A stretch of DNA of 64,000 nt, from NCBI GenBank assembly GCA_026745465.1, contig JACYXH010000815.1:1-64000 (forward strand), written 5' to 3'. A program made the position numbers and the translations under genes. This document shows, one piece after another, positions 19,038 to 54,655 of the stretch. The notes under the pieces are model-generated. The model made no database searches and was not told the origin of the DNA. It was given only the letters and a program-made list of their open reading frames with translations. Source of the DNA: Lota lota. Lineage: Eukaryota; Chordata; Actinopteri; Gadiformes; Lotidae. Positions within the stretch are counted from its first letter, which is position 1, and every line of letters begins with the position of its first letter.

Positions 19038-19042
19038 GGCAT

Positions 19043-19501: not shown

Positions 19502-19551
<50 letters not shown>

Positions 19552-25395: not shown

Positions 25396-28300
25396 TAGGG
25401 GTAAAATGGCCCAGGGCCATTACAAAGTCACGTCGGGACAACAAATAAATGCATATGCTAAAATCGAAGTCTTGCACACACTCACACGTGTGAAAATGTA
25501 CCCCCACAAAACAAACCCACATATTTTATTAAACCCGGAAACCAAACTAAACGTGTGTGTCCTACATACAGTATCACATGCAACACATCGACACGTGCAC
25601 ATTGAAACGCATATAAAAAGAAAAGTGCACGTACGTATAAGACCCGGACACGTTGCATGGTCTCCTCGTCCACATCCTTCTCAGGCTCCGCCCAGTTCAC
25701 CTGGATGTTGAGTCCCCACAACTGTAGGGTTTCTGGGACACACACACACACATACACCCAGGTGACATCAGCACGTGTGGGTACCAGGTTGTGGTAAAAC
25801 AAGGCCCAGTAACTTATCTCCCCATTTCTCATAACCCTGGCAGGCAGAGCAATTTAAGAAGCTTGGATTACAACCGTCAGCCGGTTAATGTGCTGGTGAA
25901 ATATGACCTTTCGGCAGGTAACCAATCAGCTGCCTGGGTACAGAAGGAAGAGAGCCAACAGACTGTAGTGAGTGTGTACTGCGGAGTGTTAATTTAATGG
26001 TCTCTCTCTAAGTGAGAGAGCGTATCTTCCAGAGCAGCTTAGCACACTGCTCTTCGGTGCTTTCAGATAGACTTAAAGGCGTGGTGAACTCAAATCGTTT
26101 TTTGTTATTTTATAAACGTAATATGTATTCTATTATCTTCAACATAGCAATAACTATGCCATTGTATCACTGTAACTGAAATAATACCCTGATTTAGAGA
26201 AAACAGGAGTAAAATCCTGTTTTTGCAAATCTCTGCCAACCAGTATATGAACGTTACACTCCGCTCCGCACGCAGGTAGTGATATTTTTGTGACATCAAA
26301 GTGCCTTTTGGTGCACTCTTTGACGTCAGGACCAAGTGACACCGTCGGCGAGGTGTGTGTGGACGTGTGGTGCTCCGTCTGGGCCGAGGCTGTTGATGAC
26401 GGCGTCAGAGAGGGGGTTTAGCCTTTCAGACAATTATAGGGTGTATGGACGTGTGAAGCTCTGTCTTCTCAGCGGTTTATTTTGATGTTGGCGTCCGAGA
26501 GAGGGTTATGCTTCATATACAACATCCCTCATTATAACGCATATACACAACGACGTTAGGCTACTAAAAAAGAATCACGAAGTCGCCGTGGGTCGTAACC
26601 ATGGGGACAACATGCCACCCCATCCTTCCTAGAACTCTCAGCCCAAAATTTAAAAATATTCAACCTCATAGTGTTAAAATTCAAGCTGAAACAGAGAGTT
26701 CACTTACACTTTAAAGTCCCCGTAAAGATGTAACATAATAGACTATCCTCTGTCGCCATCTGGCAGATAGCAGCAGGTACTGCTGAGCATTAAAGATGCT
26801 GGTGGGTGTGCATGAGGTTTATCAGGCATCACACACAGTATACATTAGGGCTGCCACTAACATAATATTCTGATTATGTGATAGATTCATCTATTAATCT
26901 AAACGAAAAGTATAACCATGTTCATCAAAAAATGCATGGAATTGAGTTAGATGGCTTTGCCTTGTCCTGCTCTACTGTTGTAGAGCTAGTGGGATACACT
27001 TCTAAACAGTGAATTTAATCTATTGGGATTCCCGACAGCTTCGCTTGGAAGCCCATCACTGTAATCGGGAGCGTAAATATCTGTTGAATATCCAATGTCT
27101 TTCTAACCAAAAAAAGAATAAAAAAACAAAGAAAGAAAGCAGCTCAGCACAGGCACGCTATACGACAGGAAAACAATAGTAAAGTGGGCTTCAAGTTAAA
27201 AAATAAAGGCTCTGTGTGACCGGCCCACTGTGTTTTTGCCTTTTCTGGTGGTCCTCCTTCCTGAGTAGCACCTGTATGCCTTCTTTCCAGGTGTTTGCAC
27301 ATTGTAGTAGTGCAGCTGTGAGATTTCATAGACATTTTGCACAGGGAACAAACGGTCGTGTTGTTGTCGGCTCATTTAAAGTATTTCTGTACTTTTGAAG
27401 CTTTTGGTCTGGGGAAACGTTTACACGCAACCCCTTTTGTAGCACATTGGGGTGCAGCAGCAAGTTGTTTTGGTTTATCTGTAGGTGTTTACAGGGAGCG
27501 ACTGACCTTAACGCAGCAATTACCTAATGATATTGAAGTAACACATTTAGGATAACGGATTTCATTTAACAAATTGCGTCGTAGAAATCAAAAAATATAT
27601 ATAAAATAAAGAAAACCAATTTTCAGCACCGCGGTCATTGATGAAGTCATTAAAGAGCACGATTTTGAAACTAAACTACCAAAAAAAACATCCCCCCCTC
27701 TCTGCTCCCTCCTTTGCTACGTTTCTCCGCCATTGAGTATTGAATTTCATGCACATGTGATTGACGGTCTTTTACCCAATCAGGAAAGAGATGCCCTGAT
27801 TGGTCAGAACTGAGCTGTGAGTGATATATGGCTAAGTTGAGTCATTCAGAGTATGAGTGTGTATTAGTGTGTATTTTAGAGTGTTACCTGGTATGAGTTT
27901 CCTGCGGGCCATTGCTGCAGCCTTGTGGGACTCGTACTCTACGAAGGCGAAGCCTCTGTTCCTGTTCTTATCAGTAGCACTGGGATACACTATGACATCC
28001 ACAACTCCCTCTGTTACCTGCCCAAACACACACACAGTATAATCTGTAGACTACAGTGGGGTGGGACTGTATTAATGACATTACATTTATATAGCTGACG
28101 CTTTTGTCCAAAGCGACTTACAATTGTGCAAATGTGCATTCAACAACGAAGATATAACCCAAAAAGGGCAAGAATCATTTGAGTACATAGAATTCATAAA
28201 ATAAGCAAAGCAATTGCTTTTAAGTGCTACAATATAATACCAAGTATTGGACCATGTTGAGCCTGCAGTGTGGCTTTGACAATTCAAGTATTCTCAACAG

Positions 28301-31300
28301 ATCAAAGAGTGCGTGAGTGCATGAGTGAGTGAGTGAGTGAGTGAGTGCGCGCGTGTGCGTGTGTGTGCGCATGTACTGTGTACCTTCTTCATCTCCTCCA
28401 TTATCTCCTCTTTCTTCTTGTCTTTGGGCAGGGAGCCCACAAAGAGACGGCAGTTGTCCAGACTCACACACACTCCGATGTACTTCCCCGGTCGGATCTC
28501 ATAGTTATCCAGCATGTGGATGGCCTTCTGCGCCATCTCTCTGAGGAGAGAAGAGAAGAGAGTATATAGCGGAGAGGGGAAGAGGTGGATAGAGAGAAGA
28601 GAGCAGGAGGAGGAGGGAGAGCAGGAGAGGGGAAAGGAGAGAGTAGGAAAGTAGAGGAGAGATAGAGGAGAGAGGAGGGAGAAAAAGGAGCAGGGAGACA
28701 AAGGAGCAGGGAGAGGAGAGGAAGAAGAGAGGAGATGGGAGCGTGAGATGAGAGGGTAGAAGAGCAGAGAGGGGTGTGGCGGGGGTAGAAGAAGAAAGCA
28801 AAGAGTAGAAGAGGGTGGGAAGAGAAGGTTAAGGGGAGAGGAGAGGAGATTGAGGAGAAAGAGGAGAGGGAGGAGAGGGCATAAGTGCAGATGACAGAAT
28901 TTGAGATGAGAAGAGGTCCCTACCCTTCTCTCTCTCTCTCTCTCTGGTGCTGAACTCTACCTCTCTCTCTGTCTCTAACCTGTTGGTGTACATAACGAAG
29001 GCATAGCCACGGTTCTCTCCGCTGAACTCCATCATAAGTCTGAATGTGTAGATGTAGCCAGCCCTCTCGAACACGGGCACCAGCTCGTCCTCATACATGT
29101 CCCTGGGAATCTTCCCCACGAACACCTCACAGCCCCTGGGTGGGGGCGGGCCCTCCCAGCCTAACAACCAATCACGATAATGCTCTGTTCAATGGGAGGG
29201 GGGGGGGGGGGACTACAGCTTCAAACAATATGCAGCTTGATCAAATGACTGGTTAGCTTACTTATCACAGCTTTAATTTAAGTTAATAAACACACACCAT
29301 TACAGCATTACACATACTCACACTCATTACAGTAGTACAAATTATCACACACTTATTACAGCAGTACACACATATGTATATACTGTATACAAATGTTACA
29401 TACAGCTGGATATATATAGATCTATACCTGGGGGTGGACCGTACTTCCGCTGGCCGTTCTCCTGCATCATGCTGTATCCGGTCTTCTTCATGAGCTCGAG
29501 GAGCGCGGCTTCGTTGGGCTCCGCCTGGTTGGCATCACCTAGCAACCGGCCATTCATTCCACAGTCCCGCTCCATTATCGCGATTTCTGCGAAAATGGCA
29601 TAAAGTTAAGTTCACTTTAAAGTTGAGTAAAATACTAACCAAAACTAACCAAAACCAAGAACTCGTTATGACTGAAAGAACCGTATACATATTCAATATT
29701 GTGCTGTTAAGATATTAACAGCACACATTAACCGTCAGCCGGTTAATGTGCTGGTGAAATATGGCCTTTCGGCAGGTAACCAATCAGCTGCCTGGGAACA
29801 GAAGGAAGAGAGCCAACAGACTGTAGTGAGTGTGTACTGCGGAGTGTTAATTTAATGGTCTCTCTCTAAGTGAGAGAGCGTATCTTCCAGAGCAGCTTAG
29901 CACACTGCTCTTCGGTGATTTCAGATAGACTTAAAGGTGTGGTGAACTCAAATCGTTTTTTGTTATTTTATAAACGTAATATGTATTCTATTATCTTCAA
30001 CATAGCCATAACTATGCCATTGTATCACTGTAACTGAAATAATACCCTGATTTAGAGAAAACAGGAGTAAAATCCTGTTTTTGCAAATCTCTGCCAACCA
30101 GTATATGAACGTTACACTCCGCTCCGCACGCAGGTAGTGATATTTTTGTGACATCAAAGTGCCTTTTGGTGCACTCTTTGACGTCAGGACCAAGTGACAC
30201 CGTCGGCGAGGTGTGTGTGGACGTGTGGTGCTCCGTCTGGGCAGAGGCTGTTGATGATGGCGTCAGAGAGGGGGTTTAGCATTTCAGACAATTATAGGGT
30301 GTATGGACGTGTGAAGCTCTGTCTTCTCAGCGATTTATTTTGATGTTTGCGTCCGAGAGAGGGTTATGCTTCATATACAACATCGCTCATTATAACGCAT
30401 ATACACAACGACGTTAGGCTACTAAAAAAGAATCACGAAGTCGCCGTGGGTCGTAACCATGGGGACAACATGCCACCCCATCCTTCCTAGAACTCTCAGC
30501 CCAAAATTTTAAAATATTCAACCTCATAGTGTTAAAATTCAAGCTGAAACAGAGAGTTCACTTACACTTCAAAGTCCCCGTAAAGATGTAACATAATAGA
30601 CTATCCTCTGTCGCCATCTGGCAGATAGCAGCAGGTACTGCTGAGCATTAAAGATGCTGGTGGGTGTGCATGAGGTTTATCAGGCATCACACACAGTATA
30701 CATTAGGGCTGCCACTAACATAATATTCTGATTATGTGATAGATTCATATATTAATCGAAACGAAAAGTATAACCATGTTCATCAGAAAATGCATGGAAT
30801 TGAGTTAGATGGCTTTGCCTTGTCCTACTCTACTGTTGTAGAGCTAGTGGGATACACTTCTAAACAGTGAATTTAATCTATTGGGATTCCCGACAGCTTC
30901 GCTTGGAAGCCCATCACTGTAATCGGGAGCGTAAATATCTGTTGAATATCCAATGTCTTTCTAACCAAAAAAAGAATAAAAAAACAAAGAAAGAAAGCAG
31001 CTCAGCACATGCACGCTATACGACAGGAAAACAATAGTAAAGTGGGTTTCAAGTTAAAAAATAAAGGCTCTGTGTGACCGGCCCACTGTGTTTTTGCCTT
31101 TTCTGGTGGTCCTCCTTCCTGAGTAGCACCTGTATGCCTTCTTTCCAGGTGTTTGCACATTGTAGTAGTGCAGCTGTGAGATTTCATAGACATTTTGCAC
31201 AGGGAACAAACGGACGTGTTGTTGTCGGCTCATTTAAAGTATTTCTGTACTTTTGAAGCTTTTGGTCTGGGGAAACGTTTACACGCAACCCCTTTTGTAG

Positions 31301-34300
31301 CACATTCGGGTGCAGCAGCAAGTTGTTTTGGTTTATCTGTAGGTGTTTACAGGGAGCGACTGACCTTAACGCAGCAATTACCTAATGATATTGAAGTAAC
31401 ACATTTAGGATAACGGATTTCATTTAACAAATTGCGTCGTAGAAATCAAAAAATATATATAAAATAAAGAAAACCAATTTTCAGCACCGCGGTCATTGAT
31501 GAAGTCATTAAAGAGCACGATTTTGAAACTAAACTACCAAAAAAAACATCCCCCCCTCTCTGCTCCCTCCTTTGCTACGTTTCTCCGCCATTGAGTATTG
31601 AATTTCATGCACATGTGATTGACGGTCTTTTACCCAATCAGGAAAGAGATGGCCTGATTGGTCAGAACTGAGCTGTGAGCGATATATGGCTGAGTTGAGT
31701 CATTCAGAGTATGAGTGTGTATTAGTGTGTATTTTAGAGTGTTACCTGGTATGAGTTTCCTGCGGGTCATTGCTGCAGCCTTGCGGGACTCGTACTCTAC
31801 GAAGGCGAAGCCTCTGTTCCTGTTTTTATCAGTAGCACTGGGATACACTATGACATCCACAACTCCCTCTGTTACCTGCCCAAACACACACACAGTATAA
31901 TCTGTAGACTACAGTGGGGTGGGACTGTATTAATGACATTACATTTATATAGCTGACGCTTTTGTCCAAAGCGACTTACAATTGTGCAAAAGTGCATTCA
32001 ACAACGAAGATATAACCCAAAAAGGGCAAGAAACATTTGAGTACATAGAATTCATAAAATAAGCAAAGCAATAGGCTCTGTGCACCAGCGTAGTGACCAA
32101 CTTCCGCTGTAGCCAGAAGACGGCATATCAGTTTCCGGTTTACCAGCGTCGCCCAAAATGTTAGTTTTTAGTAGATGTTTACAAGACCTGCCTAAAATAA
32201 GTATCAGTGATGTCCATCGAGTCGTTGATGCCTGGTCCCCTGCTCCAACAAGCAAGCGCAACAAGGGATTCAAACTCTACGTATCGAGTTATCTGCACAA
32301 CTACGAGGGTAAGTAGTTTAATGCGGTGTACCGGCCGGCTAGCGGCTAAGCTAGCTAGCTAGGTAGCGACGTGTTCATTTTTAGTGTAGTATAGAAGCTT
32401 GTTTTTCTTAATTTTAAACGCAAACTGTCTGTTTTTTTGTATTATCATTTGTATTTTCTGCCCCTCTCAGTTTCTAATAAAGATCAAGACACAGGGGAAG
32501 TCGTGGTCAGGGCATTGTGCTACAGGTCCATGAGGAAAGCTGAGAAACCTCACAGTTTGAGTGTATGGTGAAGTTAGGATTGATAAGTACAAGAACAAGT
32601 TCAGGTTCAGCCAACACTTATAAGCTTGTTACTTTAATAACCCGGTGTTCCTAATATTCCTGGGGATTTAGCTAAGGTAATTTTTCATTTAATATAACTA
32701 AAATAATTTAAAATAAATCGAATGAAAACTTCATTAGACAGTAAGCAGGTAAGTTTACCTAGCCAATCCCCTCCGGGTTAAATGCGTTCTTATTCAAGTT
32801 TTCCTCAATTCAGTCATTCGTTTAAGATGCAATCTTGTGTTTAAGGTATTACGCTATCATGTTTCAAAGAAAAACGATTGTGGGTGCATTTGGCATATTA
32901 TACAACATACTCTAATCCAACGTACAGAAATACATGACATTTGGTCTGTGATTATAGAATATAAGATATAGAAAATATTGTAAAAACAAGATTGTGTCCT
33001 AAAACAATGGTTAAACAGTGACCAAGCTAAGATAAATAAGTATTTACTATGACATTTTACTTATGCAGGTGGTACTGAAAGATTCCAGTCCGGTGGAGCT
33101 GTTACATCACAGCTGCACATGTGTTGCTGGAGCAGCATTATGCAACCACTGTGTCGCTTTGCTGTTCCAGTCAGCACATTACTCTCAACTGAATGTGCCA
33201 GTGGTCCCTCCTGTGTTAAGCTGTACTGAAGGAGAACAGCAGTGGCACAAGCCCAGAACTTTGGTATGTTTGGACTGTAGTTACAGAGTTGTTGTATATA
33301 TTTTCTAACTCTATTTTATCTCAAACTGTATAATTGCATAACTTGACAGGGCATAAAACCGGGCCCTGTGGATAAGATGGCTGTGCTTTCCGCTAAACCA
33401 AAGTGTAGAGCAACAACAGATCGTGTAAGGTAAAACCTGAATATTGTAAATGTATTACAATATGGTGCATGTTTGAATTAAAATACCTGTGTGGATATGC
33501 TACTTTCCATTCATGTAAGTTTTATGTTTCACTCAGGAGCACACTCTACAAAGGCCTCAGTGGGTGTAACATTTTAGCCGAAGCTAATTCTCAATGTCAG
33601 TCCCTAGTAATGCTTCAGGAGTGAGATAAAAATCCAATATTCTATGCGGTGTTTTGTAATTTTCACTTTTAATGGCATGTTTTTATGATGTTCATGTTTT
33701 TATGAAAAATGTTAGTAAGTTTGTGCATTTATTATAATAATAATAAAATGTTTTGGGTGTTGTGAGCACCAAGAAAAAGACCAGCCATTTATTACCATTG
33801 TACTCAAGAGGAGGCAGACTTCTGTAGCACTACAGATAAGAGGGAATTTTTGGGGGTGAACTGCCCCTTTTAACAACTGTAAAGAACTAACTATGGCATG
33901 CCTGTGATTGAATTTGTTGCACCTTCAAGTTGTCATGAAAAATAAACAGTCAAGACTTGGCAATTTACAAAATGATAATTTTATGTTTAACAGAACAATA
34001 TAGTTATCAATAGGGCTGCACAATTAATCGCTATTGTATCAAAACCGCAACATGAACTAGCACAATATCCAAATCACAGGGGGGTGCGCAATATTTGGTA
34101 AAGGCAAAATATGTGTCAAACCATTCTGAATGAAGTATTGGTACAGATCATTGCAAAAATCACACTATAATCATTTAAATTGAAACTGAAATCAAACTTC
34201 ATATCTCCATTCTTGACGAGAGGTCCATTCTGGTAATTTGAGAGGAGACAAGCGACAGTGAAGAGTTGGTTTATGCTCCCTGCAATGGAGAGAGGGATAG

Positions 34301-37300
34301 TGCTATCAAAGAGTTTATTTTCTTTAACTCTTCTGATCATCCTCTCAACATGCACCCTCAAACGGGCAATTGACTGCGTCTTCAGAACATCCACCTCTGA
34401 CATTTGGGCCCTCTTGGAGAGGAAGGCAGGACGATGAACAGTCCCAGGTACAAGGTCATCCACCAAGAATCCCTTGTCAACCATGATGGCCATGTCAGGC
34501 TTCAAGAGTGGTGTAATCCCTGACTGACGAAACACCTCCTTGTCACTCATGGAACCCTCAAAGAGTGCTGATACAAAAGTCAGGGCTCCGTGAGGGGACA
34601 TGCCCACCATGGCCTTAAAGGTGCAGTGGGACTTGTAGTTGGAGAAAACTTCGCTCTGAAGGAGCATGGATGAAGGCGTTTGACAACGTAGCTCTGTACA
34701 GTCGAGGACTACTTGTGTGTCACTGTAGCTGCCATCAAAGTCGTGCGGAAGATGGGCCTTCACAGCTGCGGGAGACATCCATATACAGACTGAGCCCAGT
34801 AAGCTATAGAGGAAGTTGGCCCAGGTCACAATGATTCGGCTGACTGTTGCTCGGTGGATGTTAAATCTATGACCCAACTCCCTCTGGGTACAGCCAGTGG
34901 ACAGGTATGTCAGGAAGAGGAAGAGCTCATCTATTGGCAGCAGTTTCTGGGGGGGAGAAGTGTTTAATGAGTGATAGTTCAAAGAACACATTTTTAATGC
35001 TTAGGCATCGGTTTTGGGGGAGATTGCGTACTTACAGTTGGTCTGGTTAAAGGGCTTTCCGTTGTTGTGCTAGTGGCGTATGTTTTCTTTGCTCTGGTGA
35101 CCCTAACTATTTTGGCTGTTGCTGCCTCGATCAGGTTCCAGAACGCCATCAGATGCTCGTATGAGGCGAATCTAAAATAAAGTATTACAATTGAAATTAG
35201 TTGTCTTGTCATACGAGGTCAATAATAGTATTAAGAAGAAAGAGGAAATAATTACATAACATAACGCAATCAGTTTTGAAAATATGTTGATATAATAACT
35301 ATCTTACCTGGTGTAAAATCTGATGTCTTCAGGAGACGAAGCGAACCGTTTTAGTCCAAAGCAGTTGTTAAGATGATACGTTTGGAGCTGCTCTCTTAAC
35401 GCCTCGAGTTCCCTCAACATATCTTCATACTGCTCCCGGTCCAAACATACGGTACCGCTGGCCCCATAGTCGTGGTCCACGACCATCGGGACCATGACGG
35501 GTTGCTCGATATCCTCCTCAGGATCCGACGGATCAGGTTCCGGACTTGGTGGTCGAGATCGGCGCTATCAAACACCGGCCCGTGACTTCTTCATATAATT
35601 ATTCCACTCAAATAATGAAGGAACAGAGCCTGCCGCTAAAACCCGTCTACCTTTAGCTGTAGTGAGGATTTCATGGTCTTGGAAATGTCGGCTGCATACC
35701 TTGGTGTGGGGGGTCACCGAAAATTCCACCCTCATTATTTTGTGGAGCCATCGCGAACGGAGACCGCTGTCTTTCGGGAAGCGGTGGAAGCTCAAATGGC
35801 TATTATAACGACCTGAAGCCGAGCAAAGTGGCACACAACAGTGCTCTTTAGACCCACCCACAGTACCTTGAAACTTAAATGAGTCACGTACATTATATTT
35901 CTTCTTTTTCCGTACAACAGCATCACTCATCTTGTTGTGAGTTTAGGTGTTTACTAATGCGGATGAGAACAGGAAGTAAACCGGAAACTGCAATGCCGAC
36001 TTCTAGACAAAAGCGGAAGTTGGTCACTACGCTGGTGCACAGAGCCCATTGCTTTTAAGTGCTACAATATAATACCAAGTATTGGACCGTGTTGAGCCTG
36101 CAGTGTGGCTTTGACAATTCAAGTATTCTCAACAGATCAAAGAGTGCGTGAGTGCATGAGTGAGTGAGTGAGTGAGTGCGCGCGTGTGCGTGTGTGTGCG
36201 CATGTACTGTGTACCTTCTTCATCTCCTCCATTATCTCCTCTTTCTTCTTGTCTTTGGGCAGGGAGCCCACAAAGAGACGGCAGTTGTCCAGACTCACAC
36301 ACACTCCGATGTACTTCCCCGGTCGGATCTCATAGTTATCCAGCATGTGGATGGCCTTCTGCGCCATCTCTCTGAGGAGAGAAGAGAAGAGAGTATATAG
36401 CGGAGAGGGGAAGAGGTGGATAGAGAGAAGAGAGCGGGAGGAGGAGGGAGAGCAGGAGAGGGGAAAGGAGAGAGTAGGAAAGTAGAGGAGAGATAGAGGA
36501 GAGAGGAGGGAGAAAAAGGAGCAGGGAGAAAAAGGAGCAGGGAGAGGAGAGGAAGAAGGGAGGAGATGGGAGAGTGAGAGGAGAGGGTAGAAGAGCAGAG
36601 AGGGGTGTGGTGGGGGTAGAAGAAGAAAGCAAAGAGTAGAAGAGGGTGGGAAGAGAAGGTTAAGGGGAGAGGAGAGGAGATTGAGGAGAAAGAGGAGAGG
36701 GAGGAGAGGGCATAAGTGCAGATGACAGAATTTGAGATGAGAAGAGGTCCCTACCACTCTCTCTCTCTCTCTCTGGTGCTGAACTCTACCTCTCTCTCTG
36801 TCTCTAACCTGTTGGTGTACATAACGAAGGCATAGCCACGGTTCTCTCCGCTGAACTCCATCATAAGTCTGAATGTGTAGATGTAGCCAGCCCTCTCGAA
36901 CACGGGCACCAGCTCGTCCTCATACATGTCCCTGGGAATCTTCCCCACGAACACCTCACAGCCCCTGGGTGGGGGCGGGCCCTCCCAGCCTAACAACCAA
37001 TCACGATAATGCTCTGTTAAATGGGGGGGGGGGGGGGGGGGGGGGCAGCTCGATCAAATGACTGGTTAGCTTACTTATCACAGCTTTAATTTAAGTTAAT
37101 AAACACACACCATTACAGCATTACACATACTCACACTCATTACAGTAGTACAAATTCTCACACACTTATTACAGCAGTACACACATGTCTATACTGTATA
37201 CAAATGTTACATACAGCTGGATATATATAGATCTATACCTGGGGGTGGACCGTACTTCCGCTGGCCGTTCTCCTGCATCATGCTGTACCCGGTCTTCTTC

Positions 37301-43300: not shown

Positions 43301-46300
43301 GACCATGACGGGTTGCTCGATATCCTCCTCAGGATCCGACGGATCAGGTTCCGGACTTGGTGGTCGAGATCGGCGCTATCAAACACCGGCCCGTGACTTC
43401 TTCATATAATTATTCCACTCAAATAATGAAGGAACAGAGCCTGCTGCTAAAACCCGTCTACCTTTAGCTGTAGTGAGGATTTCATGGTCTTGGAAATGTC
43501 GGCTGCATACCTTGGTGTGGGGGGTCACCGAAAATTCCACCCTCATTATTTTGTGGAGCCATCGCGAACGGAGACCGCTGTCTTTCGGGAAGCGGTGGAA
43601 GCTCAAATGGCTATTATAACGACCTGAAGCCGAGCAAAGTGGCACACAACAGTGCTCTTTAGACCCACCCACAGTACCTTGAAACTTAAATGAGTCACGT
43701 ACATTATATTTCTTCTTTTTCCGTACAACAGCATCACTCATCTTGTTGTGAGTTTAGGTGTTTACTAATGCGGATGAGAACAGGAAGTAAACCGGAAACT
43801 GCAATGCCGACTTCTAGACAAAAGCGGAAGTTGTCACTACGCTGGTGCACAGAGCCCATTGCTTTTAAGTGCTACAATATAATACCAAGTATTGGACCGT
43901 GTTGAGCCTGCAGTGTGGCTTTGACAATTCAAGTATTCTCAACAGATCAAAGAGTGCGTGAGTGCATGAGTGAGTGAGTGAGTGAGTGCGCGCGTGTGCG
44001 TGTGTGTGCGCATGTACTGTGTACCTTCTTCATCTCCTCCATTATCTCCTCTTTCTTCTTGTCTTTGGGCAGGGAGCCCACAAAGAGACGGCAGTTGTCC
44101 AGACTCACACACACTCCGATGTACTTCCCCGGTCGGATCTCATAGTTATCCAGCATGTGGATGGCCTTCTGCGCCATCTCTCTGAGGAGAGAAGAGAGTA
44201 TATAGCGGAGAGGGGAAGAGGTGGATAGAGAGAAGAGAGCGGGAGGAGGAGGGAGAGCAGGAGAGGGGAAAGGAGAGAGTAGGAAAGTAGAGGAGAGATA
44301 GAGGAGAGAGGAGGGAGAAAAAGGAGCAGGGAGAAAAAGGAGCAGGGAGAGGAGAGGAAGAAGGGAGGAGATGGGAGAGTGAGAGGAGAGGGTAGAAGAG
44401 CAGAGAGGGGTGTGGCGGGGGTAGAAGAAGAAAGCAAAGAGTAGAAGAGGGTGGGAAGAGAAGGTTAAGGGGAGAGGAGAGGAGATTGAGGAGAAAGAGG
44501 AGAGGGAGGAGAGGGCATAAGTGCAGATGACAGAATTTGAGATGAGAAGAGGTCCCTACCACTCTCTCTCTCTCTCTCTGGTGCTGAACTCTACCTCTCT
44601 CTCTGTCTCTAACCTGTTGGTGTACATAACGAAGGCATAGCCACGGTTCTCTCCGCTGAACTCCATCATAAGTCTGAATGTGTAGATGTAGCCAGCCCTC
44701 TCGAACACGGGCACCAGCTCGTCCTCATACATGTCCCTGGGAATCTTCCCCACGAACACCTCACAGCCCCTGGGTGGGGGCGGGCCCTCCCAGCCTAACA
44801 ACCAATCACGATAATGCTCTGTTAAATGGGGGGGGGGGGGGGGGGGGGGGAGCTACAGCTTCAAACAATATGCAGCTCGATCAAATGACTGGTTAGCTTA
44901 CTTATCACAGCTTTAATTTAAGTTAATAAACACACACCATTACAGCATTACACATACTCACACTCATTACAGTAGTACAAATTCTCACACACTTATTACA
45001 GCAGTACACACATGTCTATACTGTATACAAATGTTACATACAGCTGGATATATATAGATCTATACCTGGGGGTGGACCGTACTTCCGCTGGCCGTTCTCC
45101 TGCATCATGCTGTACCCGGTCTTCTTCATGAGTTCGAGGAGCGCGGCTTCGTTGGGCTCCGCCTGGTTGGCATCACCTAGCAACCGGCCATCCATTCCAC
45201 AGTCCCGCTCCATTATCGCGATTTCTGCGAAAATGGCATAAAGTTAAGTTCACTTTAAAGTTGAGTAAAATACTAACCAAAACTAACCAAAACCAAGAAC
45301 TCGTTATGACTGAAAGAACCGTATACATATTCAATATTGTGCTGTTAAGATATTAACAGCACACATTAACCGTCAGCCGGTTAATGTGCTGGTGAAATAT
45401 GGCCTTTCGGCAGGTAACCAATCAGCTGCCTGGGAACAGAAGGAAGAGAGCCAACAGACTGTAGTGAGTGTGTACTGCGGAGTGTTAATTTAATGGTCTC
45501 TCTCTAAGTGAGAGAGCGTATCTTCCAGAGCAGCTTAGCACACTGCTCTTCGGTGATTTCAGATAGACTTAAAGGTGTGGTGAACTCAAATCGTTTTTTG
45601 TTATTTTTAAACGTAATATGTATTCTATTATCTTCAACATAGCCATAACTATGCCATTGTATCACTGTAACTGAAATAATACCCTGATTTAGAGAAAACA
45701 GGAGTAAAATCCTGTTTTTTGCAAATCTCTGCCAACCAGTATATGAACGTTACACTCCGCTCCGCACGCAGGTAGTGATATTTTTGTGACATCAAAGTGC
45801 CTTTTGGTGCACTCTTTGACGTCAGGACCAAGTGACACCGTCGGCGAGGTGTGTGTGGACGTGTGGTGCTCCGTCTGGGCAGAGGCTGTTGATGATGGCG
45901 TCAGAGAGGGGGTTTTAGCATTTCAGACAATTATAGGGTGTATGGACGTGTGAAGCTCTGTCTTTCTCAGCGATTTATTTTGATGTTGCGTCCGAGAGAG
46001 GGTTATGCTTCATATACAACATCGCTCATTATAACGCCATATACACAACGACGTTAGGCTACTAAAAAAAGAATCACGAAGTCGCCGTGGGTCGTAACCA
46101 TGGGGACAACATGCCACCCCATCCTTCCTAGAACTCTCAGCCCAAAATTTTAAAATATTCAACCTCATAGTGTTAAAATTCAAGCTGAAACAGAGAGTTC
46201 ACTTACACTTCAAAGTCCCGTAAAGATGTAACATAATAGACTATCCTCTGTCGCCATCTGGCAGATAGCAGCAGGTACTGCTGAGCATTAAAGATGCTGG

Positions 46301-49300
46301 TGGGTGTGCATGAGGTTTATCAGGCATCACACACAGTAATACATTAGGGCTGCCACTAACATAATATTCTGATTATGTGATAGATTCATATATTAATCGA
46401 AACGAAAAAGTATAACCATGTTCATCAGAAAATGCATGGAATTGAGTTAGATGGCTTTGCCTTGTCCTACTCTACTGTTGTAGAGCTAGTGGGATACACT
46501 TCTAAACAGTGAATTTAAATCTATTGGGATTCCCGACAGCTTCGCTTGGAAGCCCATCACTGTAATCGGGAGCGTAAATATCTGTTGAATATCCAATGTC
46601 TTTCTAACCAAAAAAAGAATAAAAAAACAAAGAAAGAAAGCAGCTCAGCACATGCACGCTATACGACAGGAAAACAATAGTAAAGTGGGTTTCAAGTTAA
46701 AAAATAAAGGCTCTGTGTGACCGGCCCACTGTGTTTTTTGCCTTTTCTGGTGGTCCTCCTTCCTGAGTAGCACCTGTATGCCTTCTTTCCAGGTGTTTGC
46801 ACATTGTAGTAGTGCAGCTGTGAGATTTCATAGACATTTTGCACAGGGAACAAACGGACGTGTTGTTGTCGGCTCATTTAAAGTAATTTCTGTACTTTTG
46901 AAGCTTTTGGTCTGGGGAAACGTTTACACGCAACCCCTTTTGTAGCACATTCGGGTGCAGCAGCAAGTTGTTTTGGTTTATCTGTAGGTGTTTACAGGGA
47001 GCGACTGACCTTAACGCAGCAATTACCTAATGATATTGAAGTAACACATTTAGGATAACGGATTTCATTTAACAAATTGCGTCGTAGAAATCAAAAAATA
47101 TATATAAAATAAAGAAAACCAATTTTCAGCACCGCGGTCATTGATGAAGTCATTAAAGAGCACGATTTTGAAACTAAACTACCAAAAAAAACATCCCCCC
47201 CTCTCTGCTCCCTCCTTTGCTACGTTTCTCCGCCATTGAGTATTGAATTTCATGCACATGTGATTGACGGTCTTTTACCCAATCAGGAAAGAGATGGCCT
47301 GATTGGTCAGAACTGAGCTGTGAGCGATATATGGCTGAGTTGAGTCATTCAGAGTATGAGTGTGTATTAGTGTGTATTTTAGAGTGTTACCTGGTATGAG
47401 TTTCCTGCGGGTCATTGCTGCAGCCTTGCGGGACTCGTACTCTACGAAGGCGAAGCCTCTGTTCCTGTTTTTATCAGTAGCACTGGGATACACTATGACA
47501 TCCACAACTCCCTCTGTTACCTGCCCAAACACACACACAGTATAATCTGTAGACTACAGTGGGGTGGGACTGTATTAATGACATTACATTTATGTAGCTG
47601 ACACTTTTGTCCAAAGCGACTTACAATTGTGCAAAAGTGCATTCAGCAACGAAGATATAACCCAAAAAGGGCAAGAAACATTTGAGTACATAGAATTCAT
47701 AAAATAAGCAAAGCAATAGGCTCTGTGCACCAGCGTAGTGACCAACTTCCGCTGTAGCCAGAAGACGGCATATCAGTTTCCGGTTTACCAGCGTCGCCCA
47801 AAATGTTAGTTTTTAGTAGATGTTTACAAGACCTGCCTAAAATAAGTATCAGTGATGTCCATCGAGTCGTTGATGCCTGGTCCCCTGCTCCAACAAGCAA
47901 GCGCAACAAGGGATTCAAACTCTACGTATCGAGTTATCTGCACAACTACGAGGGTAAGTAGTTTAATGCGGTGTACCGGCCGGCTAGCGGCTAAGCTAGC
48001 TAGCTAGGTAGCGACGTGTTCATTTTTTAGTGTAGTATAGAAGCTTGTTTTTCTTAATTTTAAACGCAAACTGTCTGTTTTTTTGTATTATCATTTGTAT
48101 TTTCTGCCCCTCTCAGTTTCTAATAAAGATCAGGACACAGGGGAAGTCGTGGTCAGGGCATTGTGCTACAGGTCCATGAGGAAAGCTGAGAAACCTCACA
48201 GTTTGAGTGTATGGTGAAGTTAGGATTGATAAGTACAAGAACAAGTTCAGGTTCAGCCAACACTTATAAGCTTGTTACTTTAATAACCCGGTGTTCCTAA
48301 TATTCCTGGGGATTTAGCTAAGGTAATTTTTCATTTAATATAACTAAAATAATTTAAAATAAATCGAATGAAAACTTCATTAGACAGTAAGCAGGTAAGT
48401 TTACCTAGCCAATCCCCTCCGGGTTAAATGCGTTCTTATTCAAGTTTTCCTCAATTCAGTCATTCGTTTAAGATGCAATCTTGTGTTTAAGGTATTACGC
48501 TATCATGTTTCAAAGAAAAACGATTGTGGGTGCATTTGGCATATTATACAACATACTCTAATCCAACGTACAGAAATACATGACATTTGGTCTGTGATTA
48601 TAGAATATAAGATATAGAAAATATTGTAAAAACAAGATTGTGTCCTAAAACAATGGTTAAACAGTGACCAAGCTAAGATAAATAAGTATTTACTATGACA
48701 TTTTACTTATGCAGGTGGTACTGAAAGATTCCAGTCCGGTGGAGCTGTTACATCACAGCTGCACATGTGTTGCTGGAGCAGCATTATGCAACCACTGTGT
48801 CGCTTTGCTGTTCCAGTCAGCACATTACTCTCAACTGAATGTGCCAGTGGTCCCTCCTGTGTTAAGCTGTACTGAAGGAGAACAGCAGTGGCACAAGCCC
48901 AGAACTTTGGTATGTTTGGACTGTAGTTACAGAGTTGTTGTATATATTTTCTAACTCTATTTTATCTCAAACTGTATAATTGCATAACTTGACAGGGCAT
49001 AAAACCGGGCCCTGTGGATAAGATGGCTGTGCTTTCCGCTAAACCAAAGTGTAGAGCAACAACAGATCGTGTAAGGTAAAACCTGAATATTGTAAATGTA
49101 TTACAATATGGTGCATGTTTGAATTAAAATACCTGTGTGGATATGCTACTTTCCATTCATGTAAGTTTTATGTTTCACTCAGGAGCACACTCTACAAAGG
49201 CCTCAGTGGGTGTAACATTTTAGCCGAAGCTAATTCTCAATGTCAGTCCCTAGTAATGCTTCAGGAGTGAGATAAAAATCCAATATTCTATGCGGTGTTT

Positions 49301-52300
49301 TGTAATTTTCACTTTTAATGGCATGTTTTTATGATGTTCATGTTTTTATGAAAAATGTTAGTAAGTTTGTGCATTTATTATAATAATAATAAAATGTTTT
49401 GGGTGTTGTGAGCACCAAGAAAAAGACCAGCCATTTATTACCATTGTACTCAAGAGGAGGCAGACTTCTGTAGCACTACAGATAAGAGGGAATTTTTGGG
49501 GGTGAACTGCCCCTTTTAACAACTGTAAAGAACTAACTATGGCATGCCTGTGATTGAATTTGTTGCACCTTCAAGTTGTCATGAAAAATAAACAGTCAAG
49601 ACTTGGCAATTTACAAAATGATAATTTTATGTTTAACAGAACAATATAGTTATCAATAGGGCTGCACAATTAATCGCTATTGTATCAAAACCGCAACATG
49701 AACTAGCACAATATCCAAATCACAGGGGGGTGCGCAATATTTGGTAAAGGCAAAATATGTGTCAAACCATTCTGAATGAAGTATTGGTACAGATCATTGC
49801 AAAAATCACACTATAATCATTTAAATTGAAACTGAAATCAAACTTCATATCTCCATTTCTTGACGAGAGGTCCATTCTGGTAATTTGAGAGGAGACAAGC
49901 GACAGTGAAGAGTTGGTTTATGCTCCCTGCAATGGAGAGAGGGATAGTGCTATCAAAGAGTTTATTTTCTTTAACTCTTCTGATCATCCTCTCAACATGC
50001 ACCCTCAAACGGGCAATTGACTGCGTCTTCAGAACATCCACCTCTGACATTTGGGCCCTCTTGGAGAGGAAGGCAGGACGATGAACAGTCCCAGGTACAA
50101 GGTCATCCACCAAGAATCCCTTGTCAACCATGATGGCCATGTCAGGCTTCAAGAGTGGTGTAATCCCTGACTGACGAAACACCTCCTTGTCACTCATGGA
50201 ACCCTCAAAGAGTGCTGATACAAAAGTCAGGGCTCCGTGAGGGGACATGCCCACCATGGCCTTAAAGGTGCAGTGGGACTTGTAGTTGGAGAAAACTTCG
50301 CTCTGAAGGAGCATGGATGAAGGCGTTTGACAACGTAGCTCTGTACAGTCGAGGACTACTTGTGTGTCACTGTAGCTGCCATCAAAGTCGTGCGGAAGAT
50401 GGGCCTTCACAGCTGCGGGAGACATCCATATACAGACTGAGCCCAGTAAGCTATAGAGGAAGTTGGCCCAGGTCACAATGATTCGGCTGACTGTTGCTCG
50501 GTGGATGTTAAATCTATGACCCAACTCCCTCTGGGTACAGCCAGTGGACAGGTATGTCAGGAAGAGGAAGAGCTCATCTATTGGCAGCAGTTTCTGGGGG
50601 GGAGAAGTGTTTAATGAGTGATAGTTCAAAGAACACATTTTTAATGCTTAGGCATCGGTTTTGGGGGAGATTGCGTACTTACAGTTGGTCTGGTTAAAGG
50701 GCTTTCCGTTGTTGTGCTAGTGGCGTATGTTTTCTTTGCTCTGGTGACCCTAACTATTTTGGCTGTTGCTGCCTCGATCAGGTTCCAGAACGCCATCAGA
50801 TGCTCGTATGAGGCGAATCTAAAATAAAGTATTACAATTGAAATTAGTTGTCTTGTCATACGAGGTCAATAATAGTATTAAGAAGAAAGAGGAAATAATT
50901 ACATAACATAACGCAATCAGTTTTGAAAATATGTTGATATAATAACTATCTTACCTGGTGTAAAATCTGATGTCTTCAGGAGACGAAGCGAACCGTTTTA
51001 GTCCAAAGCAGTTGTTAAGATGATACGTTTGGAGCTGCTCTCTTAACGCCTCGAGTTCCCTCAACATATCTTCATACTGCTCCCGGTCCAAACATACGGT
51101 ACCGCTGGCCCCATAGTCGTGGTCCACGACCATCGGGACCATGACGGGTTGCTCGATATCCTCCTCAGGATCCGACGGATCAGGTTCCGGACTTGGTGGT
51201 CGAGATCGGCGCTATCAAACACCGGCCCGTGACTTCTTCATATAATTATTCCACTCAAATAATGAAGGAACAGAGCCTGCCGCTAAAACCCGTCTACCTT
51301 TAGCTGTAGTGAGGATTTCATGGTCTTGGAAATGTCGGCTGCATACCTTGGTGTGGGGGGTCACCGAAAATTCCACCCTCATTATTTTGTGGAGCCATCG
51401 CGAACGGAGACCGCTGTCTTTCGGGAAGCGGTGGAAGCTCAAATGGCTATTATAACGACCTGAAGCCGAGCAAAGTGGCACACAACAGTGCTCTTTAGAC
51501 CCACCCACAGTACCTTGAAACTTAAATGAGTCACGTACATTATATTTCTTCTTTTTCCGTACAACAGCATCACTCATCTTGTTGTGAGTTTAGGTGTTTA
51601 CTAATGCGGATGAGAACAGGAAGTAAACCGGAAACTGCAATGCCGACTTCTAGACAAAAGCGGAAGTTGTCACTACGCTGGTGCACAGAGCCCATTGCTT
51701 TTAAGTGCTACAATATAATACCAAGTATTGGACCGTGTTGAGCCTGCAGTGTGGCTTTGACAATTCAAGTATTCTCAACAGATCAAAGAGTGCGTGAGTG
51801 CATGAGTGAGTGAGTGAGTGAGTGCGCGCGTGTGCGTGTGTGTGCGCATGTACTGTGTACCTTCTTCATCTCCTCCATTATCTCCTCTTTCTTCTTGTCT
51901 TTGGGCAGGGAGCCCACAAAGAGACGGCAGTTGTCCAGACTCACACACACTCCGATGTACTTCCCCGGTCGGATCTCATAGTTATCCAGCATGTGGATGG
52001 CCTTCTGCGCCATCTCTCTGAGGAGAGAAGAGAGTATATAGCGGAGAGGGGAAGAGGTGGATAGAGAGAAGAGAGCGGGAGGAGGAGGGAGAGCAGGAGA
52101 GGGGAAAGGAGAGAGTAGGAAAGTAGAGGAGAGATAGAGGAGAGAGGAGGGAGAAAAAGGAGCAGGGAGAAAAAGGAGCAGGGAGAGGAGAGGAAGAAGG
52201 GAGGAGATGGGAGAGTGAGAGGAGAGGGTAGAAGAGCAGAGAGGGGTGTGGCGGGGGTAGAAGAAGAAAGCAAAGAGTAGAAGAGGGTGGGAAGAGAAGG

Positions 52301-53039
52301 TTAAGGGGAGAGGAGAGGAGATTGAGGAGAAAGAGGAGAGGGAGGAGAGGGCATAAGTGCAGATGACAGAATTTGAGATGAGAAGAGGTCCCTACCACTC
52401 TCTCTCTCTCTCTCTGGTGCTGAACTCTACCTCTCTCTCTGTCTCTAACCTGTTGGTGTACATAACGAAGGCATAGCCACGGTTCTCTCCGCTGAACTCC
52501 ATCATAAGTCTGAATGTGTAGATGTAGCCAGCCCTCTCGAACACGGGCACCAGCTCGTCCTCATACATGTCCCTGGGAATCTTCCCCACGAACACCTCAC
52601 AGCCCCTGGGTGGGGGCGGGCCCTCCCAGCCTAACAACCAATCACGATAATGCTCTGTTAAATGGGGGGGGGGGGGGGGGGGGGGGGCAGCTCGATCAAA
52701 TGACTGGTTAGCTTACTTATCACAGCTTTAATTTAAGTTAATAAACACACACCATTACAGCATTACACATACTCACACTCATTACAGTAGTACAAATTCT
52801 CACACACTTATTACAGCAGTACACACATGTCTATACTGTATACAAATGTTACATACAGCTGGATATATATAGATCTATACCTGGGGGTGGACCGTACTTC
52901 CGCTGGCCGTTCTCCTGCATCATGCTGTACCCGGTCTTCTTCATGAGTTCGAGGAGCGCGGCTTCGTTGGGCTCCGCCTGGTTGGCATCACCTAGCAACC
53001 GGCCATCCATTCCACAGTCCCGCTCCATTATCGCGATTT
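19399..53039 (-). CDS. rbm46: rbm46, RNA-binding motif protein 46, with quadruplicated exons 1-4
   Basis: RBM46 is a germ-cell RNA-binding protein with three RRMs and a C-terminal dsRNA-binding-like domain, needed for meiotic entry and progression in vertebrates. The exons encode, in order, the [24 protein letters not shown] head, RRM1 ([17 protein letters not shown]), RRM2 ([31 protein letters not shown]), the [16 protein letters not shown] linker, RRM3 ([24 protein letters not shown]) and the [18 protein letters not shown]-terminus. [17 protein letters not shown] and VSLDNCRLF favour RBM46 over RBM47 and A1CF. Exons 1-4 occur four times and exons 5-8 once. The final exon beyond 19399 is not identified. 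Splicing of the array is unknown: transcripts may use one block or several. Confidence 0.92.
19502..19556. repeat. CA microsatellite
   Basis: About 23 CA units in the rbm46 intron, ending in the exon 8 acceptor. Confidence 0.95.
19545..19990. repeat. 78-bp minisatellite containing the rbm46 exon 7 end and splice donor
   Basis: TATATTAGCAGTATCTTGGG recurs at 19591, 19669, 19747, 19825, 19903 and 19981, exactly 78 bp apart. The 19981 copy is the true 3' end of exon 7. On the minus strand each copy repeats the exon end (ILLIYK) and its GTTAAT donor. The array stays open in frame because 78 is a multiple of 3. Confidence 0.95.
19977..20176 (-). CDS. rbm46: rbm46 exon 7
   Basis: Acceptor CCCCCCAG; 200 bp; enters with 2 nt of a codon and leaves in phase 0. 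It encodes [13 protein letters not shown] and [16 protein letters not shown], collinear with the RBM46 region before the dsRNA-binding-like domain (PFYPGTKLTPI, NNWAPPEYYLYST). It ends at ATATACAAG/GTTAAT. Five further copies of this exon end and donor follow in the downstream minisatellite. Confidence 0.85.
20740..21035. repeat. GGCAGGCG and GGAACA-type minisatellite
   Basis: Short tandem motifs AGGCAGGCGGGT then AGGAACAGGAACGGGAGC, degenerate, inside rbm46 intron 6. Confidence 0.8.
23780..23905 (-). mobile_element. tRNA-derived SINE, second copy
   Basis: The minus-strand head has A box TAGTCTAGTCGTTAGGGT and a B-box-like GGTTCTGGGTTTGTTCC. The body is shared with the copy at 10042-10225. 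Confidence 0.65.
23943..24393 (-). CDS. rbm46: rbm46 exon 6 (RRM3 and Gly-rich linker)
   Basis: Acceptor TGTCCAG; enters in phase 0 at [11 protein letters not shown] and covers RRM3: RNP2-like LMLS, RNP1-like [14 protein letters not shown], and a beta-4 ending VSLAKP. A glycine-rich linker follows, then [20 protein letters not shown]. The 451-bp exon leaves in phase 1 at GGAGGAG/GTGAGG, which matches the phase of exon 7. The end falls in a GGA repeat, so its exact number of glycines may vary. The linker is richer in glycine than in mammalian RBM46. Confidence 0.88.
24394..25634. other. rbm46 intron 5
   Basis: No exon seen. Contains a minisatellite of roughly 45-50 bp at about 24860-25075 (motif GGTAGAGCAAGGCAGGGACA) and a GT microsatellite at 25353-25395. 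Confidence 0.8.
25635..25732 (-). CDS. rbm46: rbm46 exon 5
   Basis: A 98-bp exon between acceptor TCCCAG and donor GTACGT. It completes the codon split with exon 4 and encodes [20 protein letters not shown] then [11 protein letters not shown], the end of RRM2 and the conserved inter-RRM linker of the RBM46/RBM47/A1CF family. It exists once, downstream of all four exon 1-4 blocks. Confidence 0.9.
27888..29586 (-). CDS. rbm46: rbm46 exon block A (exons 1-4)
   Basis: Exon 1: 29428-29586 (ATG at 29573-29575, preceded by acceptor TTTTCGCAG and 11 nt). Exon 2: 28980-29160, RRM1 front. Exon 3: 28384-28540, RRM1 end and RRM2 start. Exon 4: 27888-28017, RRM2. All have GT/AG junctions and compatible phases. 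Block A keeps residues conserved across the family in exon 4 ([14 protein letters not shown]), unlike blocks B-D, and differs in exon 1 (GMNGRLL). It lies next to exon 5 and gives a complete reading frame with exons 5-8, so it is the likeliest part of a normal transcript. Confidence 0.9.
28083..28250. repeat. fish interspersed repeat fragment
   Basis: Contains AGCTGACGCTTTTGTCCAAA and GCGACTTACAATTGTGC, typical of a widespread teleost repeat. It is the pre-insertion site of the ISL2EU-like element. Equivalents occur at about 31936, 39748 and 47582. Confidence 0.6.
31746..37397 (-). CDS. rbm46: rbm46 exon block B (exons 1-4)
   Basis: Exon 1: 37239-37397 (ATG at 37384-37386). Exon 2: 36809-36989. 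Exon 3: 36215-36371. Exon 4: 31746-31875, beyond the transposon. Lengths (159, 181, 157, 130) and phases equal those of block A. Exon 4 has [14 protein letters not shown], replacing a His and an Ala that are conserved in vertebrate RBM46. A poly-G run at 37023-37045 lies 34 bp from the exon 2 acceptor. Whether the block is expressed is unknown. Confidence 0.85.
32158..33624 (+). CDS. SWIM zinc-finger protein of the ISL2EU-like element, apparently truncated (copy B)
   Basis: Exon-like segments: 32158-32308 ([22 protein letters not shown], donor GTAAGT), 32471-about 32567 ([11 protein letters not shown]), 33069-about 33262 (SWIM finger [17 protein letters not shown], then QQWHKPRT), about 33351-33430, and 33538-33624 (LYKGLSG, then stop). 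This is the N-terminal part of the SWIM plus YqaJ-type proteins found in ISL2EU elements. The YqaJ nuclease domain that should follow is not seen, and the exon 2-3 phase does not fit simply, so the gene is probably truncated or needs an unrecognised exon. Confidence 0.55.
34116..35930 (-). CDS. THAP-DDE transposase of the ISL2EU-like element (copy B)
   Basis: Exon-like parts on the minus strand: THAP DNA-binding domain 35568-35930 ([29 protein letters not shown]), a segment with a coiled coil 35308-35565 ending RFYTR/GTAAGA, a helical part 35036-35171 ([20 protein letters not shown]), and the catalytic part 34116-34946. The DDE residues are the Asp in VVLDCTEL, the Asp in MVDKGF and the Glu in [10 protein letters not shown]. 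Two stop codons (TGATAG) separate the THAP frame from the next segment in all copies, so that junction is either spliced or broken. In this copy one T is missing near 34212 relative to C and D, which changes the C-terminus. Confidence 0.72.
39558..45224 (-). CDS. rbm46: rbm46 exon block C (exons 1-4)
   Basis: Exon 1: 45066-45224 (ATG at 45211-45213). Exon 2: 44614-44794. Exon 3: 44025-44181. Exon 4: 39558-39687. Lengths, splice sites and frame are intact, and exon 4 carries the same His-to-Arg and Ala-to-Thr changes as B. Poly-G run 44828-44850. Confidence 0.85.
39970..41434 (+). CDS. SWIM zinc-finger protein, copy C
   Basis: Same segments as copy B (SWIM exon from 40881). Differs at single bases. 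YqaJ domain absent as in copy B. Confidence 0.5.
42002..43741 (-). CDS. THAP-DDE transposase, copy C
   Basis: THAP 43379-43741, middle exons 42847-42982 and about 43119-43376, catalytic exon 42002-42757 ending KKWRYEV. DDE residues are present. The last exon is longer in frame than expected from copy B's altered tail, so C and D show the original C-terminus. Confidence 0.72.
47391..53039 (-). CDS. rbm46: rbm46 exon block D (exons 1-4)
   Basis: Exon 1: 52881-53039 (ATG at 53026-53028). Exon 2: 52450-52630. Exon 3: 51861-52017. Exon 4: 47391-47520. Frame and splice sites are intact. Being nearest the unique upstream sequence, this block is the first one transcribed from the ancestral promoter. 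An acceptor before the start codon implies a separate non-coding first exon upstream, not located. Confidence 0.85.
47803..49270 (+). CDS. SWIM zinc-finger protein, copy D
   Basis: Same structure as copies B and C, SWIM exon from 48715. Confidence 0.5.
49838..51577 (-). CDS. THAP-DDE transposase, copy D
   Basis: THAP 51215-51577, catalytic exon 49838-50593. Same sequence as copy C at the protein level in the parts compared. Confidence 0.72.
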
Positions 53040-53171
53040 CTGCGAAAATGGCATAAAGTTAAGTTCACTTTAAAGTTGAGTAAAATACTAACCAAAACTA
53101 ACCAAAACCAAGAACTCGTTATGACTGAAAGAACCGTATACATATGCAATATTGTGCTGTTAAGATATTAA

Positions 53172-53627
53172 AATGCTAATGTATGAAAACAGAAATAATT
53201 ACAACGTGCGGGAAATTATCGCAGTGAGCTAACGTTAGCTACGCTCGCTAATAAGCTAGCACGCATATCGGGCAAGTTTTCCAACGTCTTTATTCTAGAG
53301 AACACGTTATTACATCCACCAGGTGTCTCACCACAAAGCGTTTACCGACTGTCTCTTGGGTGGAAGTGAGTCGCCTCCCGAATGTAGCGGCTTATTCATT
53401 AATAAACGAACGCAAGTACAAACAAAATGTAATATTCATAGGTGTCAACATACTGAATTGTGATTGGATGCATTATACTGTGCTATGATTGGTTAAGACC
53501 ACCCAGGTGGTGAGGTCATTCGCAAAGGATCATGGCCAGGAACACATGGACATGCAGTTACAGCTAGCTAATAAAGAGCTACGTTTATAAATATCCTGTC
53601 GTCCTGCATTTTACTATTGCACGCGGC
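53172..53627. promoter_or_regulatory. rbm46: probable rbm46 upstream region
   Basis: Unique sequence between the last exon block and a gypsy fragment. It should hold the rbm46 promoter and non-coding first exon on the minus strand, by position only; no core element was identified. Confidence 0.3.
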
Positions 53628-54173: not shown

Positions 54174-54432
54174 AGGCAGAAAAGTGGCACTGCACAGGGA
54201 CAGGCTTGCCCCTTACAGGGGTGGGGCTTCCCTCGCACCGGACTCCGAGCCCCCTTCCCCTGCCCCCCCCCGCAGCCCCCTGCTGCCACACCAGAGAGGA
54301 ACCCGACCTCTCCAGACAGTTCGGCCGCTCCACAGCTGGGGTGGCGGCCGCGGAGGCGTAGGCGGGCTCCCCGCCGGTTTGATGACTTTGTTTGCCCCCT
54401 CGGGGTCGAGGGACTTTCTCGGGGGGGTGCAG

Positions 54433-54655
54433 TGTAACGGTTCTGAGTTGCATGTTTGTCTGCATTGTGTTGATGTTCTGATTGGGTGTTCAGGAGAAGG
54501 GGGCGGGCCTTAAAGTTGGATATCCGTGTTACAGATTGGGAATGTTCATGTTCGTTGTGTTATAGCGTTCGACAACGTGTGTCCGCGATTAATAAAAGAG
54601 AGTTCATCAAAACAACCTGTGTGGTGCTTGGACGCATATAAACAGGGTTGCTACA
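54433..54655 (+). repeat. 3' LTR of the gypsy fragment
   Basis: 223 bp from TGTAACGG to GCTACA, preceded by a G-rich polypurine stretch, with AATAAA at 54591-54596. No second LTR is present, so the element is 5'-truncated. Confidence 0.7.

Follow-up and report, generated by a model that had tools for sequence, protein, structure and literature searches.

Here we describe a 64,000-nt stretch of burbot (Lota lota) DNA (positions 1 to 64,000 of contig JACYXH010000815.1, assembly GCA_026745465.1; hereafter the window) in which exons 1-4 of rbm46, a gene for a germline RNA-binding protein, are assembled as four tandem units. Our analyses suggest, with a probability of about 0.52, that the array arose by a recent partial tandem duplication within the gene in the burbot lineage, was enlarged by unequal exchange and is now drifting. 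The gene and the species are new for such a duplication; its kind is already in print, in the human LPA KIV-2 repeats and in the DAZ genes.

Structure of the array

Rbm46 lies on the minus strand, and self-alignment together with an alignment of the units placed four head-to-tail units between positions 25873 and 53171. The unit that is 5′-most for the gene, U4, occupies 45368-53171 (exons at 53039-52881, 52630-52450, 52017-51861 and 47520-47391). It is followed by U3 at 37541-45367 (exons at 45224-45066, 44794-44614, 44181-44025 and 39687-39558), by U2 at 29730-37540 (exons at 37397-37239, 36989-36809, 36371-36215 and 31875-31746), and by U1 at 25873-29729 (exons at 29586-29428, 29160-28980, 28540-28384 and 28017-27888), which adjoins exon 5. 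All four are on the minus strand, and the intervals of U1-U3 include the junction filler described below. The four exons of a unit, here called a block, measure 159, 181, 157 and 130 nt (627 nt together) in every unit, and the AG acceptors and GT donors are intact at all block exons of all four. The 40 nt preceding exons 1 and 4 are identical across U1-U4, and those preceding exons 2 and 3 show small differences between units. U1 measures 3.9 kb against 7.8 kb for U2-U4 because it is without a 4-kb transposon in intron 3. Each exon 1 has its own ATG, and the repeat takes in only about 130 bp upstream of that exon. The initial annotation of this DNA had reported rbm46 in four units with intact exons 1-4, and the units, the gene identity, the coordinates and the exon lengths that it gave were all reproduced by our alignments. 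A tandem array of whole paralogous genes was rejected, since exons 5-8 are present once in the window.

The identity of the gene is also clear from its product. The single-block translation contains the RNA recognition motif (RRM) profile RRM_1 in three stretches followed by DND1_DSRM (Pfam, E 1.2e-12), which is the domain content of RBM46. Three protein searches listed 120 of 3546, 120 of 1070 and 120 of 286 matches, giving 235 proteins for the first two combined and 355 for all three; in the first two, scoring was limited to the 8000 candidates with the most words in common, and the third was directed at candidates of 113-359 amino acids. The top three of the 120 matches listed for the single-block protein were a Gadus RBM46 and unnamed Merluccius and Lota proteins, all of similar length, and these were followed by named fish RBM46 proteins, so that the best matches listed are RBM46 of related fishes. 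The gadiform proteins (Gadus P0001 and P0005, Merluccius P0002 and Lota P0003) represent the same gene with the same domains; unlike the window, all four are single-block.

Founding junction and order of events

An identical 11-nt filler is present at all three internal junctions of the array, namely U2/U1 (29719-29729), U3/U2 (37530-37540) and U4/U3 (45357-45367), and it is absent from both outer edges. Because one filler is common to all internal junctions, a single founding junction is indicated. Together with its flanks, the filler forms two fold-back hairpins. Fold-back filler is expected from polymerase-theta end joining, and we propose that the founding joint may have been made by a mechanism of this type.

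The transposon in intron 3 provides a second marker of the array's history. In U2 it occupies 32073-36047 on the minus strand, in the gene's orientation, and it carries terminal inverted repeats and the domains THAP, HTH_Tnp_4 and DDE_Tnp_4; two plus-strand open frames within it gave no Pfam match. The same 4-kb THAP/DDE element is found in U3 and U4, and U1 represents the empty site; the insertion is flanked by AT, apparently a target duplication of 2 bp. The simplest order of events, judging from these units, would be duplication, then transposon insertion, then amplification: once the first duplication had occurred, the transposon would have inserted into the upstream copy, which would then have multiplied. 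Exact loss of the transposon from U1 is a less simple alternative.

Divergence between units and copy number

Compared with U1, substitutions amount to 1.260% in U4, 1.227% in U2 and 1.041% in U3. Among the extra units the corresponding values are 0.282% (U4-U3), 0.269% (U3-U2) and 0.064% (U4-U2). Heterozygosity in burbot has been estimated at 0.5% in the available extract of an earlier paper (PMC8650494). U1 looks truly duplicated with respect to U2-U4 because its divergence exceeds heterozygosity, because of the transposon difference and because of the common junction filler, and on these grounds an assembly duplicate was rejected as an explanation of U1. It was not rejected for the number of U2-U4: their mutual divergence lies below heterozygosity, so alleles placed in tandem by the assembler could be among these three units. 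The presence of two or more blocks is well supported; a copy number of four is the assembly's claim and is insecure.

A first alternative, then, is that the count is inflated and that the true locus contains about two blocks (U1 and one transposon-bearing block), or that haplotypes of differing count were assembled head to tail. Besides the low divergence among U2-U4, local features of the assembly speak for this. U4 contains 13 private single-base indels, all of them inside a 1.3-kb tract of its intron 4 (45607-46886, between U4 exon 4 and U3 exon 1) and none elsewhere in the unit, as would be seen with unpolished long reads; U1-U3 have three to four private short indels each, and these are scattered. 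The cluster in U4 probably reflects uncorrected long-read errors, that is, a local defect of assembly quality. A further indication comes from Lota P0003, the only burbot RBM46 record seen among the matches listed. P0003 comes from another burbot sequence, conceivably the Norwegian burbot assembly (PMC13011446). It is single-block, and its alignment with the single-block translation shows four substitutions, gaps in the linker and repeats aside. Exon 1 of U1 encodes N8, and D8 is found in U2-U4 and in P0003; U1 keeps H193 and A199, and all three extra copies have H193R and A199T. P0003 combines D8, H193 and A199, a combination present in none of the four blocks here, and it may represent either an unduplicated allele or a gene model joining exons of two blocks.

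On the other hand, the units have private variants, and one filler marks every internal junction and neither outer edge. A minimum of two blocks would remain even if the count were inflated. U3 also contains a mosaic tract. Alignment columns 6566-7301 (730 aligned columns) hold 12 of the 21 differences between U3 and U2 (p ~5e-8), and eight of these 12 are shared with U1. The tract may reflect either exchange between copies or mixed alleles. Taken together, we consider an inflated count unlikely.

Coding potential and domain content

Exon 1 starts 11 nt before its ATG, and the phase at the end of exon 4 is 1. The junction between exon 4 and the next exon 1 is open: it reads GAA ATC GCG ATA ATG (E-I-A-I-M), the first G belonging to exon 4. 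The phase and the open junction had both been described in the initial annotation, and conceptual translation, which met no stop, agrees with them. When every exon 4 is joined to the following exon 1, the four blocks yield a conceptual protein of 1116 amino acids with 0 stops through exon 8. If each exon 4 is instead joined to the exon 2 that follows, the frame is kept as well and the product has 957 amino acids. However, of the 36 sets of contiguous exons in rbm46, 13 (about one in three) are frame-neutral. Frame neutrality is therefore near chance and provides no evidence of design, and we rejected it as a sign of design. In this respect burbot rbm46 is a case in which frame neutrality alone should not be taken as function.

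The position of the exon 4/5 boundary is important for what the blocks could encode. An AlphaFold prediction for P0003 made with 33 sequences (mean pLDDT, the predicted local distance difference test, 64.7; pTM, the predicted template modelling score, 0.38; ten-residue pLDDT means of 57 to 89 over RRM2, residues 141-220) assigned residues 193-202 to helix 2 of RRM2 and residues 216-219 to its strand 4. Residue 205, just past helix 2, marks the end of exon 4, and strand 4 is encoded by exon 5 (25635-25732, minus strand, 98 nt), which is single-copy. In this model each internal block would encode RRM1 in full and an RRM2 from which strand 4 is missing, and since strand 4 lies in exon 5, three of the four RRM2s in a multi-block protein would be truncated. 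The initial annotation had envisaged four RRM1-RRM2 pairs; the boundary and the model agree with four RRM1s, and with only one whole RRM2 beside three truncated ones.

Pfam recognized nine RRM_1 stretches in the first 952 amino acids of the conceptual multi-block protein. It is not a sharp measure of RRM2 completeness, as the truncated form still scores and the whole form reaches only profile position 59 of 70. The score was 39.0 bits for the whole RRM2 (profile 1-59 of 70), compared with 34.1 bits (1-54 of 70) for the truncated RRM2 in a test protein that also had R193 and T199, so that the drop does not come from truncation alone.

Constraint on the extra blocks

U2, U3 and U4 are identical over their 627 exon nt, and their introns differ by up to 0.53%. 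U1 differs from them at six exon positions (0.96%), three of which are replacements. This exon divergence is not reduced when compared with that of introns (6/627 vs 34-42 in about 3200, or 1.06-1.32%; Fisher p 0.56-1.0). Purifying selection on the extra blocks was not supported, there being no significant exon-versus-intron reduction either between U1 and the others or among U2-U4.

The replacements H193R and A199T affect sites that are otherwise invariant or nearly so. Among the 120 matches listed of 3546 for the single-block protein, H193 was present in all 120 and A199 in 118, with G in the other two. In the 355 matches listed by all searches, which include RBM46 and the wider family and of which 354 were scored, site 193 was H in 354, and site 199 was A in 351, G in two and T in one. 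The lone T among these matches is in the first block of a two-block protein from Armadillidium vulgare, P0221. Changes at such sites, together with exon divergence not significantly below that of introns, do not support the idea of the initial annotation that the block is an expandable module by design. Its underlying facts of partial duplication (identity, phase and open junction) stand, and it was the reading of these facts as a multi-RRM design that went too far.

Comparison with known proteins and repeats

A second alternative is that burbot makes a real multi-block RBM46 with up to four RRM1s, three truncated RRM2s and one full RRM2, RRM3 and a double-stranded RNA-binding-like domain, in which copy number would act as a variable of dosage or avidity. 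The frame that stays open through all blocks, at 1116 or 957 amino acids, is compatible with such a protein, as are the intact splice sites of every block exon, the conserved 40 nt before exons 1 and 4, the nine RRM_1 stretches and the identity of the U2-U4 exons. In opposition to these stand the three RRM2s predicted to be without strand 4, the replacements H193R and A199T in the extra copies, and the fact that about one exon set in three is in frame by chance. In addition, no two-block vertebrate RBM46 was found among the 235 proteins listed, and P0003 is itself single-block. We consider a functional multi-block protein unlikely.

The sole two-block protein among those 235 was P0221, a putative RBM46 of 807 amino acids. 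It has two RRM1-RRM2 stretches within a single predicted protein; unlike the burbot array, its copies are diverged and separated by a linker, and it could stem from a real fusion or from the merging of two neighbouring genes. A burbot protein consisting of a block only was not found among the matches listed at 113-359 amino acids, where identity was at most 88% and many rows were without an organism name. As a separate observation, the 774-amino-acid RBM46 prediction P0004 from Channa striata has the part comprising the RRM2 end and RRM3 repeated after the C-terminal domain, which may reflect either a further partial duplication of rbm46 or the merging of gene models.

No literature joining rbm46 with the term 'tandem duplication' was found in the library searched, and rbm46 is not mentioned in the main text of the Norwegian burbot assembly paper (PMC13011446). 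Similar arrangements in other genes have been reported. According to the available extract of PMC4378929, the tandem unit of human LPA KIV-2 is about 5.5 kb long with exons of 160 and 182 bp, and it occurs in 1 to more than 40 copies in people. Like the burbot array, it is an intragenic unit of whole exons (342 nt, a multiple of 3) that stays in frame at any number, and the same holds for the rbm46 block, whose tandem units lie within one gene and keep the frame however many are joined. The LPA copies are 98-100% alike in their first exons. The differences are that KIV-2 number is known to vary in people, whereas the burbot array is known from one assembly, and that the burbot unit cuts RRM2 short.

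Human DAZ1 contains three RRMs, DAZ4 two, and DAZ2 and DAZ3 one each (PMC11304246, extract), and a third RRM domain in DAZ1 has also been named elsewhere (PMC2151955, extract). Like burbot rbm46, DAZ1 and DAZ4 belong to the germline RNA-binding proteins with a repeated RRM-coding part, and they provide a precedent for a multi-block RBM46. In contrast, DAZ is Y-linked, is known as a protein and repeats whole RRMs, whereas the burbot array is known from the gene alone and each repeat holds a complete RRM1 with an RRM2 that, by the model and the exon boundary, is without strand 4. The initial annotation had regarded a germline protein with expandable RRM tandems as new to the knowledge of its author; the multiplied RRMs of DAZ1 and DAZ4 and the frame-neutral module of LPA KIV-2, as given in these extracts, precede it.

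Proposed history and expression of the array

Based on these observations, we favour the partial tandem duplication introduced at the outset and propose the following scheme for its expression. The promoter would lie upstream of U4, a position we infer because no more than about 130 bp ahead of exon 1 is included in the repeat, and one pre-mRNA would span all blocks. In mouse Rbm46, exon 2 contains a guide site whose first letters are ATG (PMC9529142, extract), as would be expected if a non-coding exon preceded the ATG exon and the latter had a real acceptor. Splicing would then produce a mixture of transcripts, some in which an exon 4 joined to exon 1 or exon 2 of the following block keeps extra blocks in frame, and others that pass from a single block into exon 5. 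The single-block product containing exon 4 of U1 would do the essential RBM46 job, and the extra RRM2s, lacking strand 4, would be gathering replacements. The extra blocks would be tolerated because the frame is unbroken and not because extra RRMs were selected.

Several points weigh against this scheme. The position of the promoter is itself inferred, and if exons are spliced in order by default, the multi-block transcript should be favoured. The exon identity of U2-U4, although not significant (p 0.09 at best), could reflect constraint or conversion, and AG and GT have been retained at every splice site of each block. Moreover, H193R and A199T may be one inherited change each, as U2-U4 are near-identical copies. 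A third alternative, in which each unit has its own promoter and serves as an alternative 5′ end while the usual product is single-block from U1, could draw on the ATG and the roughly 130 bp of upstream DNA that accompany each exon 1, and is very improbable given that nothing further upstream is repeated, that the ATG exon has a usable acceptor (consistent with the mouse guide site, PMC9529142, extract), and that any transcript started in U2-U4 would still need to pass through U1. The possible outcomes listed in the initial annotation, namely a multi-block protein, alternative 5′ ends and silent duplicates, were the right ones to consider.

RBM46 is described as essential to the fertility of mouse, flies and fish, and germ-cell expression together with this requirement is stated for mouse, fly and zebrafish (PMC9529142, extract). 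An array that can be enlarged in frame within such a gene would therefore be a natural test of how much domain multiplication is tolerated. Furthermore, the founding junction, the presence or absence of the transposon and the changed extra copies provide a readable history of the birth of an intragenic array. If multi-block transcripts exist, burbot RBM46 would join DAZ among the germline RNA-binding proteins in which RRMs have been multiplied, and the interest of the locus lies mainly in whether burbot RNA shows the extra blocks in use. We can also speculate that the array varies in copy number among burbot and yields RBM46 with one to four blocks of RRM1 and an RRM2 whose extra copies are without strand 4, so that meiotic RNA-binding avidity varies with the array; this we regard as quite unlikely.

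The 3′ part of the gene and flanking observations

Downstream of exon 5, the remaining single-copy exons are also on the minus strand. Exon 6 (23943-24393, 451 nt) encodes RRM3 and the linker, exon 7 (19977-20176, 200 nt) encodes the first part of the DND1_DSRM domain, and exon 8 (19399-19501, 103 nt) encodes its end. Searching the window by tblastn with P0001-P0003 and their tails did not find a further coding exon after exon 8. For the end of the P0003 tail, past its minisatellite part, the only matches in the window were weak and of low complexity, the best reaching 50% over 42 amino acids at E 0.001. Because the end of the C-terminal tail matches the window only weakly, at least one more coding exon probably follows exon 8, and the gene probably runs on to the left of the window.

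Two minisatellites are associated with these exons. The first (19546-20002) has a 78-bp unit of 26 codons that repeats the last 25 nt of exon 7 together with the splice donor; it contains six exact copies of the exon end, its frame is open throughout, and Lota P0003 reads into it. The second (19039-19413), with a unit of about 30 bp, repeats the end of exon 8 and its donor and contains 12 exon-end copies. Repeats of this exon 8 type are read into by the Lota P0003 and Gadus P0005 proteins.

On the other side of the array, plus-strand open stretches at 53591-54510 resemble by eye a fragment of a gypsy-type integrase; one of them was scanned and gave no Pfam match at E 0.001. An open stretch on the plus strand at 56830-57456 contains the Pfam Recep_L_domain and looks insulin-receptor-like by eye. 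It is followed at about 57.7-58.9 kb by stretches of immunoglobulin-like appearance, one of which was scanned and gave no Pfam match. Finally, a minisatellite with a unit of about 30 bp lies at 57433-57777.

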